IMG/VR virus record: IMGVR_UViG_3300017951_000040
Location: 1 to 37,499 of that record
Reading direction: 5' to 3' (one strand)
Length of the DNA stretch: 37,499 bases
Source of the DNA: a virus
Each line of letters begins with the position of its first letter. The stretch's first letter is position 1. The position numbers were made by a program, and so were the translations under genes. Below, in pieces: positions 30,602-37,467 of this stretch. The notes under the pieces were generated by a model. It did no database searches. It worked only from the letters and a program-made list of their open reading frames with translations, and had not been told where the DNA came from.

Positions 30602-30658
30602 GATTCCCGCGCAATTTGGGGAAAGATCCTGACGCTACAGTTTTGCAGATAAGACTGT

Positions 30659-30721
30659 TATACATAACAGACCTAAGTAAGTCTTTAAACTGCTTTTTGT
30701 TCTTTCATTTTATCAAATCAA
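30659..30721 (+). promoter_or_regulatory. extended -10 promoter and TTAAACT hairpin leader (copy A1)
   Basis: TGT-TATACA (30656-30664) resembles an extended -10. Four nt later AGAC (30669-30672) and GTCT (30681-30684) form a 4-bp stem with loop CTAAGTAA, followed by TTAAACT (30685-30691) and, 37 nt after the stem, ATG 30722. The leader ends in ATCAAATCAA directly before ATG. Three further copies precede the genes at 32064, 32549 and 34940. Confidence 0.6.
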
Positions 30722-30901
30722 ATGAACACAATTGCTTTCGTCACTGACAACTTCTACTTCGAGTTTGTTATCAACTCGGAGGAGGATATTGCGTACGTTA
30801 CCAAGCGTGCGTTCCAAACTGCTGACGTTGATTTCAATGATCAGTGCACGTCGATGTCAATCGAACGTGCCCGTAAGTATTACGCATCATTGATTGGCTG
30901 A
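30722..30901 (+). CDS. small protein, 59 aa, first gene of the small-gene region
   Basis: The product starts MNTIAFVTDNFYFEFVINSE, then EDIAYVTKRAFQTADVDFND, and ends ERARKYYASLIG. It looks like a small alpha/beta fold. It directly follows leader copy A1, which supports the start. Its TGA overlaps the first base of the following three-hairpin element. No family recognised. Confidence 0.65.
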   Translation: MNTIAFVTDNFYFEFVINSEEDIAYVTKRAFQTADVDFNDQCTSMSIERARKYYASLIG

Positions 30902-30965
30902 TCCGTACAAGCGGGTTGGGAGGTGCAAACCCTCCCACAGTTATTACCCACAGCGGAGATGGGTA
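30902..30965 (+). ncRNA. three-hairpin intergenic RNA-like element (copy D1)
   Basis: Directly after the stop at 30901: hairpin I CCG-TACAAG-CGG (30903-30914), a 2-nt gap, hairpin II TGGGAGG-TGCAAAC-CCTCCCA (30917-30937, 7-bp stem and 7-nt loop), and hairpin III TACCC...GGGTA (30945-30965). Loop II resembles a tRNA T-loop. Copies D2 and D3 share the order. Whether it is a separate RNA or part of the mRNA is unknown. Confidence 0.5.
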
Positions 30966-30986
30966 CCGCACACACAGGAGACTGAC

Positions 30987-31175
30987 GTGTTCTTCGTCAT
31001 CGTCGACGGTCAACAACACAGCGCACACTTCTCTAAAGAGGAAGCTGACGACGCTGCATTCGATCTTTCGGTCGATTGCAACTACAACTTCGGTTTTCCT
31101 GTACAGGAACGCGTACAGATATCCGTCCTCTCCTTTACGGAGATGATGGAGTCTCAGGTTGAGATGGTCATCTGA
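30987..31175 (+). CDS. small protein, 62 aa, GTG start
   Basis: GTG 30987 is chosen because AGGAG lies 6 nt upstream and because an earlier in-frame ATG (30894) would run through hairpin element D1. The product (VFFVIVDGQQHSAHFSKEEA...) has a beta-strand start, an acidic helix and strands CNYNFGFPVQERVQISVLSF, like a small alpha/beta fold. It is one of the few genes here with a canonical Shine-Dalgarno. No family recognised. Confidence 0.6.
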   Translation: MFFVIVDGQQHSAHFSKEEADDAAFDLSVDCNYNFGFPVQERVQISVLSFTEMMESQVEMVI

Positions 31176-31178
31176 CCA

Positions 31179-31232
31179 GGCGTGATGCCGGGGGTCGAAC
31201 CCCCTCTCAATTATTGCCACAATCCAGTGGCA
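31179..31232 (+). ncRNA. three-hairpin intergenic RNA-like element (copy D2)
   Basis: After the stop at 31175: hairpin I GGC-GTGAT-GCC (31179-31189), hairpin II GGGGG-TCGAA-CCCCC (31190-31204; also readable as loop GTCGAAC), and hairpin III TGCCAC-AATCCA-GTGGCA (31215-31232). Compared with D1 and D3, stem I is changed on both sides (GGC/GCC instead of CCG/CGG) with pairing kept. The next ATG is 16 nt downstream. Confidence 0.5.
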
Positions 31233-31248
31233 TTTATCAGATCACATC

Positions 31249-31455
31249 ATGCGTTACATGCATCCTCTCATTGCTGTCACCATTGGTACAGGCATAGGTT
31301 TATTACTTTCTGTCGTTGGACAGAAACAATTTAATGCCCATGCCCGTCACACCTGTAACAAGCCTGGCATCAGCGATACACATCGTCTGGTTACAGTCTC
31401 ATCTTTTACAGGTGATGCTAACTACTGTATGCACATCCGTTACCTTGGTAACTGA
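31249..31455 (+). CDS. small membrane or exported protein, 68 aa
   Basis: The N-terminus MRYMHPLIAVTIGTGIGLLL has a basic start and a hydrophobic helix (about 6-24), so it could be an N-anchored membrane protein or a signal peptide. The remaining 45 residues contain two Cys (HTCNKP, NYCMHI). ATG 31249 follows TTTATCAGATCACATC. No family recognised. Confidence 0.6.
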   Translation: MRYMHPLIAVTIGTGIGLLLSVVGQKQFNAHARHTCNKPGISDTHRLVTVSSFTGDANYCMHIRYLGN

Positions 31456-31475
31456 TCACATTACTAACAAGAACC

Positions 31476-31640
31476 ATGACAGCATTGAACATCCGCAAGA
31501 ACATTGCCGGTCTTCTGTATCTCACTGCAGATGCCATTATCAAAGCCAAGGCACCCAAAGTGCCGAGTAAAGGTCAGGTCCAGTATCGTGTTGACGATCT
31601 TCGCCGTAAGGTTGCCAACAAGATCAACCCTGACACTTGA
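31476..31640 (+). CDS. small basic protein, 54 aa
   Basis: The product starts MTALNIRKNIAGLLYLTADA and continues basic (KAKAPKVPSKGQVQYRVDDL), ending RRKVANKINPDT. It lies 20 nt after the previous stop, preceded by an A-rich AACAAGAACC leader without clear Shine-Dalgarno. Its TGA is followed directly by element D3. Function unknown. Confidence 0.55.
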   Translation: MTALNIRKNIAGLLYLTADAIIKAKAPKVPSKGQVQYRVDDLRRKVANKINPDT

Positions 31641-31644
31641 TCAT

Positions 31645-31704
31645 CCGTTAAAGCGGGAGACCAGGTGCAATCCCTGGTCGATCAGTTGCCACAATCCCGT
31701 GGCA
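31645..31704 (+). ncRNA. three-hairpin intergenic RNA-like element (copy D3)
   Basis: After the stop at 31640: hairpin I CCG-TTAAAG-CGG (31645-31656), a 2-nt gap as in D1, hairpin II GACCAGG-TGCAATC-CCTGGTC (31659-31679), and hairpin III TGCCAC-AATCCC-GTGGCA (31687-31704). Stem II differs from D1 at most positions yet pairs fully, while the TGCAA(A/T)C loop is kept, which is the mark of a conserved RNA structure. The next ATG is at 31723. Confidence 0.55.
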
Positions 31705-31722
31705 TTTATCAAATTAAATTGT

Positions 31723-31935
31723 ATGGCTACCAACAAAGAGAAGTCGATTGCTCTTGGTGCAGCATGTACTGCACTGGGTGCCATCATCTTTCCACCAAGT
31801 GCTATTTTAGGTGCAATTTTAATTGCAAGGGAGGCACTGTCAGACCACCCTTACGAACAAGATGATAAGAAATCTAAGTCTTATCACAAACCCTTGGAGT
31901 ACCAACCACCTGACATCAGTAACCCTAGGTTTTGA
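31723..31935 (+). CDS. small membrane protein, 70 aa
   Basis: The product (MATNKEKSIALGAACTALGA...) has one hydrophobic segment (about 9-36, with PPS near the middle, possibly a helical hairpin) followed by a charged, Pro-rich cytoplasmic-type tail (DDKKSKSYHKPLEYQPP). I chose ATG 31723 because it follows the D3/ATCAAATTAAATT leader. After its stop CTGCC/GGCAG and AGAC/GTCT can form short hairpins (31936-31967). Unrecognised; a holin-like or superinfection role is only a guess. Confidence 0.6.
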   Translation: MATNKEKSIALGAACTALGAIIFPPSAILGAILIAREALSDHPYEQDDKKSKSYHKPLEYQPPDISNPRF

Positions 31936-32013
31936 CTGCCCAGACAACATGGCAGACACTTTTGTCTAGCTATGTCTGGCTATTACTCTTTACAAGTTCA
32001 TCAGATCAGGTAC

Positions 32014-32063
32014 CGTCCTGAGCATGACGTTAAACTGCTTAATGTTTCCTTTAGATTCCCGAC
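32014..32063 (+). promoter_or_regulatory. TTAAACT hairpin leader (copy B1)
   Basis: CGTC (32014-32017) and GACG (32026-32029) pair around the loop CTGAGCAT, followed by TTAAACT (32030-32036) and ATG 32064, 34 nt after the stem. The stem differs from copies A1/A2 on both arms but still pairs. This copy lacks the ATCAAATCAA motif at the start. Confidence 0.55.
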
Positions 32064-32348
32064 ATGCCAACCACTGTTGAGATTCAAACCGATGCCATTG
32101 CTAAAGCCCGTGACAAGAACTGGATGGTTCTAAGCGCGGGCACTGACTACACAGCAATTGTCATCGCACACTGCCGTGACATGAACACCAACTGGTACAG
32201 GGAAATGGTCATTGTTGATGGTGTAGCCGAAACTCTGACACATCAAAGTCCAGATACAGTCTGGAACGATGAAGAGATTGCCAAGAAGCTTGAGTGTTTC
32301 AAGCTGAACACCCAGGGCAATGACTTTGTTACACCTGAGACTGACTGA
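32064..32348 (+). CDS. hypothetical protein, 94 aa
   Basis: The product starts MPTTVEIQTDAIAKARDKNW and appears to be a compact alpha/beta protein with an acidic C-terminal helix (WNDEEIAKKLECFKL). It follows leader copy B1, which supports the start. Soluble, without motifs. Family not recognised. Confidence 0.65.
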   Translation: MPTTVEIQTDAIAKARDKNWMVLSAGTDYTAIVIAHCRDMNTNWYREMVIVDGVAETLTHQSPDTVWNDEEIAKKLECFKLNTQGNDFVTPETD

Positions 32349-32369
32349 CCCCCCACCCCGTTGTCGCCA

Positions 32370-32486
32370 ATGTCACTGCAGAGCTACAGAATCGGCAAGA
32401 ACCAGTATGTGACCACTGACTTTTATGAAAGTCCAGGGTTACGCAATCGGTTCTATCGTTTCATTGCACGGTTATTCCGTATTTAA
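32370..32486 (+). CDS. possible 38-aa peptide
   Basis: The frame gives MSLQSYRIGKNQYVTTDFYE and ends in a basic aromatic helix (NRFYRFIARLFRI). It starts 21 nt after the previous stop without Shine-Dalgarno and ends 9 nt before the next leader hairpin. Composition (Arg/Phe/Tyr-rich amphipathic end) is plausible for a membrane-active peptide, but shortness keeps confidence low. Confidence 0.4.
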   Translation: MSLQSYRIGKNQYVTTDFYESPGLRNRFYRFIARLFRI

Positions 32487-32495
32487 TCCTGCAAT

Positions 32496-32548
32496 AGACC
32501 TGAGCAAGTCTTTAAACTACTCACTGTTCTTTCATTTTATTAAATCAA
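32496..32548 (+). promoter_or_regulatory. TTAAACT hairpin leader (copy A2)
   Basis: AGAC (32496-32499) and GTCT (32508-32511) pair around the loop CTGAGCAA, followed by TTAAACT (32512-32518), a TGTTCTTTCATTTTAT stretch shared with copy A1, ATTAAATCAA and ATG 32549, exactly 37 nt after the stem as in A1. A TATTTAAT box lies about 10 nt upstream. Confidence 0.6.
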
Positions 32549-32818
32549 ATGACTGTTCAAACATTTGACGATGGTGGTTATGTTGTCACTGGTGACAGCA
32601 TTCCCATGTATCGTCTCTTGACATTACGCACAGCCCTCAAAATGGAAACCAAGGGATTGCGTATGTCATCTCATCGCCCCAGTGCATACTCAATCATCAA
32701 GAAAGAGTTTGGTCTAAAGGGTTCCAAGGCTAAGGTCTTGGCTGCTTTTGAATCAATCCTTGTCAATGATTACGGCATACCGTTGACAGGCTTTACAGCC
32801 TCTGAGCCTACGGTATAA
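32549..32818 (+). CDS. conserved small phage/cyanobacterial-type protein, 89 aa
   Basis: The core YRLLTLRTALKMETKGLRMS (21-40) followed by RPSAYSIIKKEFGLKGSKAK matches a short conserved pattern I recall (LRxALKLExKGMxxxxxSAYxxIKxEFGLKGxxxxV) from cyanobacteria and their phages, of unknown function. It begins directly after leader A2. The helical, basic core could bind nucleic acid. Confidence 0.7.
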   Translation: MTVQTFDDGGYVVTGDSIPMYRLLTLRTALKMETKGLRMSSHRPSAYSIIKKEFGLKGSKAKVLAAFESILVNDYGIPLTGFTASEPTV

Positions 32819-32837
32819 CTACATTGTCCCCATCACC

Positions 32838-32894
32838 AGCTGGGCAGATGAGTTACATGCGTCATGTGTATGGAACTCCTCGTAAGTCCCAGCT
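32838..32894 (+). promoter_or_regulatory. GTAAGT-type hairpin leader (copy C1)
   Basis: AGCTGGG (32838-32844) pairs with CCCAGCT (32888-32894). The 5' arm is followed by CAGATGAG and the 3' arm is preceded by CGTAAGT. The long loop contains its own inverted repeat (ACATGCGTCATGTGT). A C/T-rich stretch leads to ATG 32926, 31 nt after the stem, preceded by ACATC. Confidence 0.5.
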
Positions 32895-32925
32895 TTCTTC
32901 ACCTCATTTCATTCAGTACAACATC

Positions 32926-33081
32926 ATGTCTACCATGTCTGAACTCCATCGCCTGATGCAAGAGATGAAGCAGGATGACCTTGACATCCTCGCTGATATT
33001 GCCTACGAACAGGAGCAAGCCATGCGCGAAGCCATGGACGAACCACCAATCGAGGTATCAAATGACTCACCAACAAATTGA
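32926..33081 (+). CDS. small acidic helical protein, 51 aa
   Basis: The product MSTMSELHRLMQEMKQDDLD continues with DILADIAYEQEQAMREAMDE and is a strongly acidic helix. I start it at ATG 32926, after the C1 leader, rather than at 32824, which would place the hairpin inside the coding region. Its last 20 nt overlap the next gene. Function unknown; acidic helices of this size occur in inhibitors and DNA mimics. Confidence 0.55.
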   Translation: MSTMSELHRLMQEMKQDDLDILADIAYEQEQAMREAMDEPPIEVSNDSPTN

Positions 33082-33535
33082 TCACACTGAAATCATTACA
33101 GAGATCATTGCTTTGATCTCTGTTGTCATCACAGTTCTCATCACCAACATCATCCAATGTCTTCAACCCTCAAGTACTACACCGACCGTTACCCCGTTAC
33201 AGGCGCAGCAAGATATTGGATTGACCGATACAACTGGTCCAAAACCTTTGATGGTTGTGACCCAGAAACAATCCAAATCCATAACACCTGGCAAGTCTAC
33301 GGCGGGCCAGAAGAAGGCGGCTGGTGGTACGAAGTCGGTCAAGCAATCTCCACGCATTTCATCTTCTCCAAGAAGCAATGTATCCGGAGATGCATTGAAC
33401 TCACCCAGCAGTACCAGCTTGATGACCAACCTTCCATTACAGATTCACGAGGTCTCACCGCCGTTCATGCCACACTCGGAACAGGATTTGCCATGGACTA
33501 TCCCACCGAGCGGCCTTACTATTGCTAGGTCATGA
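33062..33535 (+). CDS. single-pass membrane protein overlapping the 123-aa gene, 157 aa
   Basis: ATG 33062 has a GAGG site 6 nt upstream. Residues 11-32 (IITEIIALISVVITVLITNI) form a clear transmembrane helix. The remaining 120 residues are Ser/Thr/Pro/Lys-rich and entirely out of frame over the gene at 33157-33528, so the tail may be poorly constrained. The membrane segment lies almost entirely before the overlap and looks real. Unrecognised. Confidence 0.45.
   Translation: MTHQQIDHTEIITEIIALISVVITVLITNIIQCLQPSSTTPTVTPLQAQQDIGLTDTTGPKPLMVVTQKQSKSITPGKSTAGQKKAAGGTKSVKQSPRISSSPRSNVSGDALNSPSSTSLMTNLPLQIHEVSPPFMPHSEQDLPWTIPPSGLTIARS
33157..33528 (+). CDS. conserved small protein, 123 aa
   Basis: The product is ordered and aromatic: RYWIDRYNWSKTFDG, then WQVYGGPEEGGWWYEVGQAI and FSKKQCIRRCIELTQQYQLD. 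I recall the VYGGPEEGGWWYxxG pattern followed by a short helix in cyanobacterial and cyanophage proteins of unknown function. It lies wholly inside the frame of the membrane protein 33062-33535. ATG 33157 lacks a Shine-Dalgarno; upstream is AACATCATCC. Confidence 0.7.
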   Translation: MSSTLKYYTDRYPVTGAARYWIDRYNWSKTFDGCDPETIQIHNTWQVYGGPEEGGWWYEVGQAISTHFIFSKKQCIRRCIELTQQYQLDDQPSITDSRGLTAVHATLGTGFAMDYPTERPYYC

Positions 33536-33543
33536 ACTACATA

Positions 33544-33575
33544 CCCTGGGCAGCTATGATGCGTAAGTCCCAGGG
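33544..33575 (+). promoter_or_regulatory. GTAAGT-type hairpin leader (copy C2)
   Basis: CCCTGGG (33544-33550) pairs with CCCAGGG (33569-33575). As in copy C1, the 5' arm is followed by CAG and the 3' arm preceded by GCGTAAGT. TTCC and TTTATCTAATCAAATCAAATC lead to ATG 33602, 26 nt after the stem. Confidence 0.55.
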
Positions 33576-33601
33576 CTTCCTTTATCTAATCAAATCAAAT
33601 C

Positions 33602-33868
33602 ATGGACACAGTCAATGACATCTACGGTCCTTACTACCAAGAGAAGGGCCGAGAGATACCACGCAAATCTTCACTCTCACCCGAAGCAACTAAGTTATGG
33701 CGTGAGATGGAACAAGCAGCTCATGCTTCTGTCTACCAAAGAGAGAACATGACAGTAGATGTGGACTGGAACTTGGAGCAAGCTATCGAAAAGCTTTGCA
33801 GTCATCCAGGTTGCAGCTGGGAACCAACTACCGTCAGGTATTGGATCCGTCAAACCTACTACAAATAA
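33602..33868 (+). CDS. hypothetical protein, 88 aa
   Basis: The product begins MDTVNDIYGPYYQEKGREIP and has a central helix (EATKLWREMEQAAHASVYQR). The C-terminal part (LCSHPGCSWEPTTVRYWIRQ) contains a Cys-His-Cys group that might bind metal. It follows leader C2 and the ATCAAATCAA motif. Family not recognised. Confidence 0.65.
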   Translation: MDTVNDIYGPYYQEKGREIPRKSSLSPEATKLWREMEQAAHASVYQRENMTVDVDWNLEQAIEKLCSHPGCSWEPTTVRYWIRQTYYK

Positions 33869-33881
33869 CCACTACAATCCC

Positions 33882-34121
33882 ATGAAACTTGAACGCAGTC
33901 CAACGTTAAGTCTTCCAATCGAAGCTTTGATTGGTGGAGTTGTCACTAGTTCTAGCGGTATTGAACTCGGTTGTATACAACATGTTCGCATCACCATTTC
34001 TAGTGATGATACAATTGATCTCCTATTATGCCTGGAAGACAACTATAGTATTTCTTGGAGTGATGTTGAAGACTACAAGATTCATTTTCAAGCACCTTTT
34101 CAATGCGCTCCTACCTTTTAA
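33882..34121 (+). CDS. small beta-rich protein, 79 aa
   Basis: Start ATG 33882 is chosen because the longer frame from 33759 would overlap the previous gene by over 100 nt. The product starts MKLERSPTLSLPIEALIGGV and alternates strands (CIQHVRITISSDDTIDLLLC), ending acidic then hydrophobic. The leader CACTACAATCCC has no Shine-Dalgarno. Unrecognised. Confidence 0.6.
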   Translation: MKLERSPTLSLPIEALIGGVVTSSSGIELGCIQHVRITISSDDTIDLLLCLEDNYSISWSDVEDYKIHFQAPFQCAPTF

Positions 34122-34145
34122 TTCATTAGTAAAACTTATTACCCA

Positions 34146-34355
34146 ATGATGTCTAATCTTCAAATTCCTGACAACATTCCTGATTCAGATCGGCTTAGGG
34201 CCATGGCACTCGTTGCCAAGATGAAGGATGCCGCTGACAAGTGCGGTGCTCAATTCATCGGTGGATTCATTGCACCAGATGGCACCAAATACATTGCATC
34301 CAACATGGATGAAGACGATCCGAACTACATCATTCCTGACAACCTTATGGATTGA
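34146..34355 (+). CDS. hypothetical protein, 69 aa
   Basis: The product begins MMSNLQIPDNIPDSDRLRAM, has a Lys/Ala helix (ALVAKMKDAADKCGAQF) and a strand GGFIAPDGTKYIASN with an acidic tail. The two initial ATGs leave the exact start open. It is followed 6 nt later by the next gene. Unrecognised. Confidence 0.6.
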   Translation: MMSNLQIPDNIPDSDRLRAMALVAKMKDAADKCGAQFIGGFIAPDGTKYIASNMDEDDPNYIIPDNLMD

Positions 34356-34361
34356 TCGGCC

Positions 34362-34652
34362 ATGACCCGTAAGAAATCAAAGGTCAACTTTGACAAAACT
34401 ATTGCCGGATTTAACATTACTGAACACGGCATCAAAAGCTACAGCAAGACCATCAAGCTTGGTCCTTTTCAGTTCACTGCCAACATTAATGGTTCACAGG
34501 CCAGGGGATCCTTGGGGATCCCTGGTACTGGCATATCATTTCGCAACTGTGTCTCTATGGACTTACCTTCTTTAGAGTCACCAGATCTGCCAGAATACAA
34601 CCGCAAACCAGACATGTGGAATGACGACGAAGGTTCTCAAACTAAGCATTGA
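34362..34652 (+). CDS. DUF4236-like small protein, 96 aa
   Basis: KSYSKTIKLGPFQFTANING (25-44), then QARGSLGIPGTGISFR (46-61), follows the DUF4236 pattern (repeated Gly turns ending in GxPGTGxS(Y/F)). That family consists of small secreted or surface-type domains of unknown function, common in bacteria. The N-terminus is basic (MTRKKSKVNF) and the C-terminus acidic. Its end overlaps the next frame by 32 nt. Confidence 0.65.
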   Translation: MTRKKSKVNFDKTIAGFNITEHGIKSYSKTIKLGPFQFTANINGSQARGSLGIPGTGISFRNCVSMDLPSLESPDLPEYNRKPDMWNDDEGSQTKH

Positions 34653-34815
34653 TAGTGTCATGCCAGATGATGTAATACACACAGGACCACGGGGTGGTGA
34701 ATACATCATCCGCGATGGTATCAAGTATTACATCAACCGTAAGCCAACAAGCTATGGTCGTAATTACAAACCAAGGGCAGGTGCATTCCAACGGTTCCTT
34801 ACTAATCAAATCTAA
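34621..34815 (+). CDS. small protein with GPRGGxY motif, 64 aa
   Basis: HTGPRGGEYIIRDGIKYYIN (20-39) matches the TGxRGGxYyxxxGxKxY(I/V) motif found as a short domain in many viral and bacterial proteins. The C-terminus is basic (RNYKPRAGAFQRF). An alternative start ATG 34660 (MPDDVIHTGPRGG) lies 8 nt after the preceding stop and would remove the 32-nt overlap; the sequence does not decide. Confidence 0.6.
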   Translation: MTTKVLKLSIDSVMPDDVIHTGPRGGEYIIRDGIKYYINRKPTSYGRNYKPRAGAFQRFLTNQI

Positions 34816-34886
34816 ATAACCCCTCCACACCTCCCAAGGGACGACCAGGGGGAATACATTTATATATAGATGTACTTCCCTTTACT

Positions 34887-34939
34887 CGTCCTAGACATGA
34901 CGTTAAACTGTCTCTGTTCACATCACACTACATTTCATT
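34887..34939 (+). promoter_or_regulatory. TTAAACT hairpin leader (copy B2)
   Basis: CGTC (34887-34890) pairs with GACG (34899-34902) around the 8-nt loop CTAGACAT, followed by TTAAACT (34903-34909). ATG 34940 lies 37 nt after the stem, the same spacing as copies A1 and A2. A TATATATAGA stretch (34861-34870) about 20 nt upstream may hold a -10. Confidence 0.6.
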
Positions 34940-35116
34940 ATGGACCAATCGACAATCATCCAAGCCTACACAACTGTGTCAGGTATGGCCGACACCAAAA
35001 GAGCTGAGGCTAGACAATATCCAGTAGGGTCTCATGAATGGTGTAAGTACTTTGACCAGGCTGAGGCTTTATCTAAAGCTGCACTTGCAGTACTAGACAT
35101 CAAAGACAATGACTGA
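34940..35116 (+). CDS. small helical protein, 58 aa
   Basis: The product starts MDQSTIIQAYTTVSGMADTK and continues RAEARQYPVGSHEWCKYFDQ, ending AEALSKAALAVLDIKDND. It is preceded by leader copy B2, which supports the start. It overlaps the next gene by 8 nt. Unrecognised. Confidence 0.6.
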   Translation: MDQSTIIQAYTTVSGMADTKRAEARQYPVGSHEWCKYFDQAEALSKAALAVLDIKDND

Positions 35117-37378: not shown

Positions 37379-37467
37379 GAGAGTGTGGCGGAATTGGTAG
37401 ACGCAACAGACTTAAAATCTGTCGGTCAGTAATGGCTATGTGGGTTCAAGTCCCACCACTCTCACCA
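37379..37467 (+). tRNA. tRNA-Leu (anticodon UAA), CCA encoded, no intron
   Basis: Acceptor stem GAGAGTG (37379-37385) pairs perfectly with CACTCTC (37457-37463), followed by discriminator A and an encoded CCA (37465-37467). The D-arm region GGCGGAATTGGTAGACGC is typical of tRNA-Leu. Anticodon stem ACAGA/TCTGT encloses CTTAAAA with anticodon TAA. A long variable arm and T-arm GTGGG-TTCAAGT-CCCAC complete it. It reads UUA/UUG codons, and phage copies usually supplement the host pool. The host tRNA-Leu(UAA) gene of many cyanobacteria carries a group I intron in the anticodon loop; this one is uninterrupted. Confidence 0.97.

Follow-up and report, generated by a model that had tools for sequence, protein, structure and literature searches.

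A 28-nucleotide RNA pseudoknot of unrelated phages, usually close behind a stop codon, and its possible role as a 3'-end cap

An RNA element of only 28 nt that folds into an H-type pseudoknot occurs four times in a virus record of 37,499 bp (IMGVR_UViG_3300017951_000040, the whole of which is called the window here) and in a total of 578 distinct examples from 366 loci. The class is spread widely among unrelated phages and is covered by no Rfam family. The element usually has the stop codon of the upstream gene as its rigid neighbor, though not for three of the four copies in the window. We propose, at slightly less than an even chance, that the knot caps the 3' ends of phage transcripts, blocking 3'→5' exonucleases.

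Four Copies in the Window

An earlier note on this DNA had described four copies of an mRNA leader, each with a 4-bp stem, an 8-nt loop, TTAAACT and a fixed distance to an ATG. Sequence inspection and a descriptor scan found the four copies in the same places (Table 1), with the compensatory switch of the stem between AGAC/GTCT (A1, A3) and CGTC/GACG (A2, A4) and with the 8-nt segment and TTAAACT following as described. The structural descriptor matches the window exactly four times, with no fifth copy elsewhere in the 37,499 bp, vs. a mean of 0.11 matches in 200 Markov-shuffled windows. In the record, the forward search with the pattern CCTNNNNAWGNNNNTAAACT gave 4 matches and the reverse and control searches none. 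TTAAACT by itself shows no enrichment, with 9 occurrences in the window and 9.4 expected.

The hairpin with an 8-nt loop had to be given up in favor of a pseudoknot: the nested hairpin alone is not more stable than shuffled sequences, and "loop" bases 3–6 pair with bases 3' of TTAAACT in all four copies (core pairs AAGU/GCUU in A1, GAGC/GCUU in A2, GAGC/ACUC with 3 of 4 pairs in A3 and AGAC/GUCU in A4).

Table 1. Positions of the four pseudoknots and of neighboring genes in the window.
Feature	Position	Strand	P1	L1	P2	L2	L3	Remarks
Copy A1	30669..30696	+	30669-30672/30681-30684 AGAC/GTCT	30673	30674-30678/30692-30696 TAAGT/GCTTT, 4 inner pairs	30679-30680	30685-30691 TTAAACT	
Gene 3' of A1	30722..30901	+						59 aa, no family assigned; leader without Shine-Dalgarno sequence
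Copy A2	32014..32041	+	CGTC/GACG		TGAGC/GCTTA, 5 pairs		32030-32036 TTAAACT	
Gene 3' of A2	32064..32348	+						94 aa, no PHROG match
ORF 5' of A3	32370..32486	+						38 aa; TAA stop at 32484-32486, 9 nt before A3
Copy A3	32496..32523	+	AGAC/GTCT		TGAGC/ACTCA, 4/5 pairs		32512-32518 TTAAACT	
Gene 3' of A3	32549..32818	+						89 aa, phrog_19182, unknown function
Copy A4	34887..34914	+	CGTC/GACG		TAGAC/GTCTC, 4 inner pairs		34903-34909 TTAAACT	
Gene 3' of A4	34940..35116	+						58 aa, unknown

Structure and Covariation

In the family the layout is P1 NNNC/GNNN (4 bp, C-G closed), L1 C, P2 UNNNN/NNNNA (4–5 bp), L2 AW (two nucleotides in the aligned examples) and L3 NUAAACU. Among 199 distinct cases chosen without regard to P2, all four P2 pairs are formed in 169; nearly all other registers gave 0–14, and the sole comparable count, 140, belongs to P2 shifted by one pair, which is its U-A extension. 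In 171 cases picked irrespective of P1, all three extra P1 pairs are formed 129 times, and 31 pair combinations occur. Covariation over 58 sequences was 0.626; shuffling brought it to 0.223 and sliding to 0.203 at most, and double-change cells numbered 108 vs. 31. Whether the stem is broken while TTAAACT stays was checked on 334 distinct cores picked by sequence signature, pairing not being demanded: P1 was kept in 240, P2 in 248 and both in 201, vs. 2, 2 and 0, respectively, among 53 cores of a reversed control.

The interpretation in the earlier note is partly supported as a whole, and its claim of RNA function rather than a DNA operator strongly, since hundreds of sequences show covariation in P1 as well as in the newly found P2; compensatory pairing in two interleaved helices is not what a DNA operator would show. 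The extended −10 that the earlier note saw at A1 did not hold up: two close relatives lack conservation of its TATACA box, and shuffled sequences contain promoter-like sites just as often, on which grounds a promoter at A1 was rejected.

The positions CC, A, G and AAACU are near-invariant, beyond what pairing needs, and the single helices are weak (about −2 to −3 kcal/mol each). A general 5' hairpin beside the knot is not claimed, since it was seen in single cases only and the control region 30–60 nt upstream is equally structured.

Distribution

The hosts of the carrying phages are Cyanobacteria, Firmicutes, Actinobacteria, Bacteroidota and Proteobacteria, and examples were also found in contigs assigned to Patescibacteria. 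An RNA structure conserved across phages of such different hosts is rare. With Rfam 15, cmscan of the window to E = 5 found one tRNA and one chance snoRNA and nothing at the four copies; on 15 loci bearing the element only tRNAs, one hammerhead and one DUF2800 RNA were found. An obligate tie to phage hammerheads was rejected, the knot being absent from PaP3, Bcep176 and the examined part of 80alpha. The commonest sequence had no match in E. coli genomes and plasmids, a weak test in that one variant was used. No earlier description was found in a literature coverage that mostly excludes subscription papers, so that one may exist. The element seems to have escaped notice through its very small size and its pseudoknot, a fold that standard covariance models are unable to represent. 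Whatever its function, the knot is useful as an annotation marker for metagenomic phage genomes.

Position Relative to Stop Codons and Other Neighbors

In 42% of 185 unrelated upstream protein clusters a stop codon lies 5–6 nt before the knot (5 nt before P1 in 45 clusters, 6 nt in 32, less than 4 nt in 2). When no gene calling was used, a stop triplet ending 5 nt before P1 was found in 33.6%, vs. a background of about 6%. Of the five knots found in the 45 kb of the cultured Synechococcus phage S-EIV1, four follow annotated stops, at distances of 5, 5, 6 and 11 nt. The stop is UAA in 107 of 167. In 28% of all copies no ORF of at least 50 aa ends within 60 nt upstream; in the window the arrangement of stop codon and knot is seen at A3 only, and no called gene ends within 60 nt upstream of A1, A2 and A4. 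The spacing makes the footprint of the ribosome at termination readable from sequence.

The flanking genes are unrelated on both sides (108 clusters of downstream proteins, 86 of upstream proteins), on which account gene-specific regulation was rejected. A downstream ATG, proposed as the partner of the element, is not the general one: a leader and gene may follow the knot, but many copies precede a tRNA, a hammerhead ribozyme or a terminator. The fixed distance to the ATG stands for the window, where it is nearly constant (37, 34, 37 and 37 nt from stem to ATG for A1–A4), but in the family it varies, with peaks at 24, 25, 27 and 33 nt after P2' (mostly 24–27 nt in phages lacking Shine-Dalgarno sequences). 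Genes after the knot have a Shine-Dalgarno-like sequence in 46 of 185.

In 30 of 49 distinct knot-tRNA pairs the tRNA starts 4–8 nt after P2'. Of about 18 hammerheads, most begin directly after the knot, with predicted cleavage about 5–8 nt from it; of two examined with Rfam, one was above and one below the gathering score. Both scans required a short distance by design, so that information comes solely from how sharp the distances are inside the range admitted. Where an RNA 3' end can be predicted, no other structure lies between it and the knot. Some knots sit between two tRNAs (loci L003 and L088). In the tRNA array of L003 one knot starts 1 nt after an encoded CCA, which argues against a cap, since blocked 3' trimming would be awkward at that place. 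The knot also recurs between portal/minor head and scaffold/capsid genes, a placement that would also suit a benefit to the downstream gene.

Possible Functions

By its position 3' of a cistron and near the predicted 3' end of the RNA, the element fits the class of mRNA stabilizers that block 3' exonucleases; copies A1, A2 and A4 of the window do not have this position. In the mechanism that we propose, phage operon RNA would be cut 3' of the knot. Where a tRNA follows, RNase P would make the cut; elsewhere a hammerhead would do so, or an endonuclease acting in an unstructured leader. The cut would leave behind the knot a single-stranded tail too short for 3'→5' exonucleases, which the knot would halt, so that the upstream cistron would be protected. 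The knot would lie as near to the stop codon as it can without being unwound by a ribosome that terminates there; being placed beyond the reach of this ribosome, it would keep the end sealed during translation.

RNase II of E. coli stalls 5–7 nt before a duplex and that of Synechocystis 4 nt (PMC3293843), while the overhang required by RNase R is about 7 nt (PMC12320835). These limits fit the predicted cut, which is usually 4–8 nt past the knot where a tRNA or hammerhead follows. That helix stability alone blocks RNase R is doubtful because each helix is so weak; both helices being short, the blocking would probably occur via tertiary contacts of the A-rich L3 or via a bound factor. The full proposal is that of a portable cap in phages of many bacterial phyla, set as near to the stop codon as the terminating ribosome permits and paired with an RNase P or hammerhead cut a few bases on, which would give a short exonuclease-proof end. 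We hold it tentatively, at somewhat less than an even chance, this estimate covering jointly that the class was previously undescribed. A cap would mean phage-wide protection of mid-operon messages without terminators, would explain why hammerheads and tRNAs stand directly behind genes in some phages, and would give a 28-base part open to testing in laboratory bacteria.

Instead of capping an end, the knot could be a ribosome-proof spacer that shields the next tRNA, hammerhead or ribosome binding site from terminating or sliding ribosomes, or that uncouples the translation of neighboring genes. We consider this unlikely. The wall below 4–5 nt and the mode at 5–6 nt in the stop-to-knot distance would be expected of such a spacer; frameshift pseudoknots touch the ribosome at spacers of 5–9 nt (PMC7618472), and the spacing of the knot is at the low end of this range. 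In the phages lacking Shine-Dalgarno sequences the usual ATG distance lets the knot fit between a terminating and an initiating ribosome, and tRNAs and hammerheads follow within a few nucleotides. A short unstructured stretch would serve equally well, however, 28% of the copies are without a nearby upstream ORF, and at the knots between two tRNAs no ribosome arrives.

A further reading is a leader element that recruits ribosomes to the downstream gene or regulates it; where Shine-Dalgarno sequences are lacking, it could for example be a standby site or a protein operator. In the window all four copies precede an ATG at a near-constant distance, in leaders that are G-poor and lack Shine-Dalgarno sequences, and in two relatives A1 is kept together with its leader, ATG and gene and with no upstream gene. 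As an explanation of the element this role is unlikely, since the downstream partners are unrelated and include tRNAs, terminators and hammerheads that would sever the knot from the next gene, the ATG distance varies and many of the genes have Shine-Dalgarno-like sequences. A1 lies about 440 nt past the last ORF and a terminator-like hairpin, and its conservation with leader and ATG fits a leader role there. The window copies, of which A3 alone has a nearby stop, may have such a role.

A folded knot that serves as a processing signal, bound or cut by a host protein or nuclease of wide conservation, would account for the near-invariant bases; the weak helices also point to a partner, and the element occurs across many phyla. 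The same bases can equally well be explained as tertiary contacts of L3 in the P1 groove, and a comparison of the neighboring genes revealed no co-occurring protein, the neighbors being unrelated; we consider a recognition site improbable. Stimulation of stop-codon readthrough or −1 frameshifting was rejected as very improbable. In its favor, the stop spacing equals that of known stimulatory pseudoknots, and a distance of 7 nt, which would bring UGA and UAA of the knot into frame, is under-represented. Against it, slippery heptamers show no peak, UAA is the predominant stop, and reading on in frame would give short extensions, with a median of about 20 codons.

Comparison with Known Systems

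The −1 frameshift and readthrough pseudoknots of the luteoviral type share with the knot the compact H-type fold, the short L1, the A-containing L3 and a spacer of about 5–6 nt from the A-site codon, which lies within the 5–9 nt after the decoded codon given for such stimulators (PMC7618472). They differ in having a slippery heptamer or a leaky stop with a conserved extension, whereas the knot follows an ordinary stop, usually UAA, and is also found before tRNAs and ribozymes and between tRNAs.

The preQ1-I riboswitch (RF00522) is likewise a small H-type pseudoknot with an A-containing L3. It has no match in the window to E = 5, the L2 of 2 nt leaves no pocket loop, and no queuosine genes recur beside the knots, whose neighbors are unrelated. 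This riboswitch, which needs a multi-nucleotide L2 ligand loop, was rejected, as were other known riboswitches and Rfam families, for which there was no match.

The pseudoknot in the mRNA of T4 gene 32 is also a phage pseudoknot in an mRNA leader region, where it is the autoregulatory operator of a single gene. The knot differs in being present in several copies per genome, beside genes that are unrelated, and in its tie to the stop codon upstream; an operator of the gene 32 type, bound to one gene and its binding protein, was rejected in view of the many clusters on both sides.

The ToxI RNAs of type III toxin-antitoxin systems are short pseudoknots of similar length. ToxI units are repeated in tandem next to a toxin gene; the knot stands in single copies, with no toxin gene recurring.

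REP/BIME elements and other 3' stem-loop stabilizers are intercistronic structures proposed to halt 3' exonucleases and so to spare the upstream cistron, as we propose for the knot. From these the knot is set apart by being a phage-borne pseudoknot with conserved loops, whose distances are fixed both to the stop codon and to the sites cut by RNase P or a hammerhead.

Fold of the element

The four copies in the window, a 37,499-bp IMG/VR virus record, that the earlier note had proposed as an mRNA leader are found there as described with regard to position, stems, loop segment, TTAAACT and distance to the ATG. TTAAACT alone occurs at chance frequency, and the full element occurs exactly four times, always on the plus strand; Markov-shuffled windows contain on average 0.11 full elements and the reversed pattern has no match in the window. 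The hairpin with an 8-nt loop has to be redrawn: bases 3–6 of this "loop" can pair with those that immediately follow TTAAACT, so that the element is a pseudoknot (from here on, the knot). Its consensus is CGUC C UGAGC AU GACG UUAAACU GCUCA, in the order P1, L1, P2, L2, P1′, L3 and P2′.

IMG/VR was scanned with one P1 fixed and P2 free, which gave many exact matches; among the matches listed, all four P2 pairs form in the predicted register in 169 of 199 distinct sequences. Nearly all other registers pair in 0–14 of the 199; the one that comes close (140) differs by a one-pair shift and represents the U-A extension of P2. In the converse scan (P2 fixed, P1 free), 129 of 171 sequences have a paired P1, drawn from 31 combinations. 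In an ungapped alignment of 58 distinct sequences (28 columns) the covariation of the two interleaved helices is 0.626; shuffling lowers it to 0.223 and sliding to 0.203 or less. There are 108 versus 31 double-change cells; the mutual information of the variable pairs is far above that of shuffles, and C4, C5, A11, G13 and AAACU (19–23) are invariant. Pairing is conserved also when it is not demanded: both helices are kept in 201 of 334 distinct cores chosen by the sequence signature alone (reversed control 0 of 53). The nested hairpin by itself is not stable.

Features in the window and at two further knot-bearing loci
Feature	Position	Strand	Remark
Knot A1	30669	+	
Knot A2	32014	+	
Knot A3	32496	+	
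Knot A4	34887	+	
T-arm-like stem-loop region	30902–30990		82% identical to S-EIV1 43711–43794
T-arm-like stem-loop region	31176–31213		
T-arm-like stem-loop region	31641–31685		
Hairpin leader	31214–31247		
Hairpin leader	31686–31719		
tRNA gene at window end	37379–37464	+	Rfam, 63 bits; no knot in front
CCGCC...GGCGG fold, L294	after 7916	−	immediately 3′ of knot
CCGCC...GGCGG fold, L301	after 6123	−	immediately 3′ of knot

Neighbouring genes and distance to the stop codon

The constant feature of the knot is its geometry and not its gene neighbours. The proteins beside it are unrelated (86 upstream and 108 downstream clusters in the first set), with DNA polymerase, ribonucleotide reductase, thymidylate synthase and minor head protein on one side and PhoH, SSB, scaffold and methyltransferase on the other. 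In several phage lineages (loci L163, L164, L166, L314, L317 and L319) the knot separates portal/minor-head genes from the scaffold/capsid module.

Upstream stop codons lie most often 5 nt from P1, next most often 6 nt and almost never less than 4 nt. When each unrelated upstream protein cluster is counted once, the spacing is 5–6 nt in 77 of 185 and below 4 nt in 2 of 185; without gene calls, a stop triplet ends 5 nt ahead of P1 in 33.6% of cases versus about 6% elsewhere. Four of the five knots found in S-EIV1 begin 5, 5, 6 and 11 nt past annotated stops; the window virus is taken to be a cyanophage because its terminase and the one from this cultured cyanophage share 80% identity. A spacing of 7 nt is scarce (7 clusters versus 32 at 6 nt and 17 at 8 nt); there, UGA and UAA of the knot itself would fall in frame. 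The mRNA entry helicase of the ribosome lies at about position +11 from the P codon, and 5 nt is presumably the first spacing that leaves P1 intact beside a ribosome terminating on the stop. A rival reading is that the knot is a ribosome-proof spacer.

Elements downstream of the knot

A leader and a gene follow the knot in most cases, otherwise a tRNA, a type III hammerhead ribozyme or a terminator. In a set fetched regardless of tRNAs, 11 tRNAs start within 34 nt of a knot, 9 of them within 12 nt; targeted scans found the knot-tRNA pattern in at least 72 contigs and the knot-hammerhead pattern in at least 20. The tRNA starts 4–8 nt after P2′ in 30 of 49 distinct pairs. Most of the hammerheads (19 pattern matches, about 18 clear) begin directly after P2′, with expected cleavage mostly about 5–8 nt, in a few cases 10–21 nt, from P2′. 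Locus L282 has two successive runs of gene, stop, knot, hammerhead and Shine-Dalgarno gene.

The knot could also be a leader or operator for the downstream gene. Where a hammerhead lies between the knot and the next gene, it separates the two, and so the knot remains part of the upstream RNA. For the window copies the leader reading may hold, since only A3 has an ORF stop codon nearby (9 nt) and A1, leader and ATG are conserved together in two relatives; about 440 nt upstream of A1 are without a gene. The −10 box that the earlier note had placed at A1 is not conserved in these relatives.

Other structured elements were seen. A hairpin leader, TTGCCACAATCC(A/C)GTGGCATTTATCA(G/A)AT, precedes two start codons (88% identity over 34 nt), and stem-loops resembling tRNA T-arms (GGAGGTGCAAACCCTCC, GGGGTCGAACCCC, ACCAGGTGCAATCCCTGGT) directly follow three stop codons, possibly as another kind of 3′ element at knot-less genes. 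The conserved CCGCC...GGCGG fold at loci L294 and L301 has an invariant inner loop, CATCACCTGATCACTGATGGCTCAA, and no Rfam match at the gathering threshold.

Distribution

In all sequences collected there are at least 578 distinct knots in at least 366 loci, with the IMG/VR scans in part pattern-biased and giving lower bounds; a structural descriptor finds 494 sites in 2.7 Mb versus 9–13 in shuffled or reversed sequence. Far beyond the window virus, the knot is present in Staphylococcus Phietavirus SA13 and StB12, Lactobacillus Lj771, phig1e and relatives, Bacillus phage Page, a Moorella phage, thermophilic phage D6E, Arthrobacter Amigo, Mycobacterium phage Labelle, Roseobacter SIO1 and other cobaviruses, Paracoccus and Vibrio phages, crAss-like cr7_1, and Nostoc, Microcystis and Synechococcus phages. 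Bacterial-genome contigs with the knot include Saccharibacteria, Nomurabacteria and Ignavibacteria; three are CRISPR-array stretches whose spacers carry it. One array of 141 repeats in the Ignavibacteria chromosome CP054675 (loci L307 and L311) has the knot in 5 of 137 distinct spacers, two of which end 1–2 nt after it; this spacer set is more structured than shuffles (29% versus 13% below −6 kcal/mol), and an RVT_1 reverse transcriptase was not detected in this genome. No Rfam family matches the knot and no description was found in the literature searched, the coverage of which was incomplete; it is probably a new RNA class.

A proposed 3′-end cap

We favor the reading that the knot is a 3′-end cap, which would have to remain folded beside the terminating ribosome, because the tail of 4–8 nt expected after it has the length at which bacterial 3′ exonucleases stall or cannot load: RNase II from E. 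coli stalls at 5–7 nt and that from Synechocystis at 4 nt (PMC3293843), and RNase R needs an overhang of about 7 nt (PMC12320835). In the processed cases the end product would be an upstream RNA that ends, at its 3′ side, just beyond the knot; this product, the exonuclease block and the benefit of the knot are what we infer, whereas its fold, its distribution and its geometry are shown. A strong block would need tertiary contacts or a bound factor, since both helices are short and weak; another rival reading makes the knot a recognition site for a protein or nuclease. Known frameshift pseudoknots have spacings of 5–9 nt (PMC7618472). Recoding, the last of the rival readings, is largely excluded. 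As a 3′-end cap, the knot would resemble in function the known 3′ stem-loop stabilizers.
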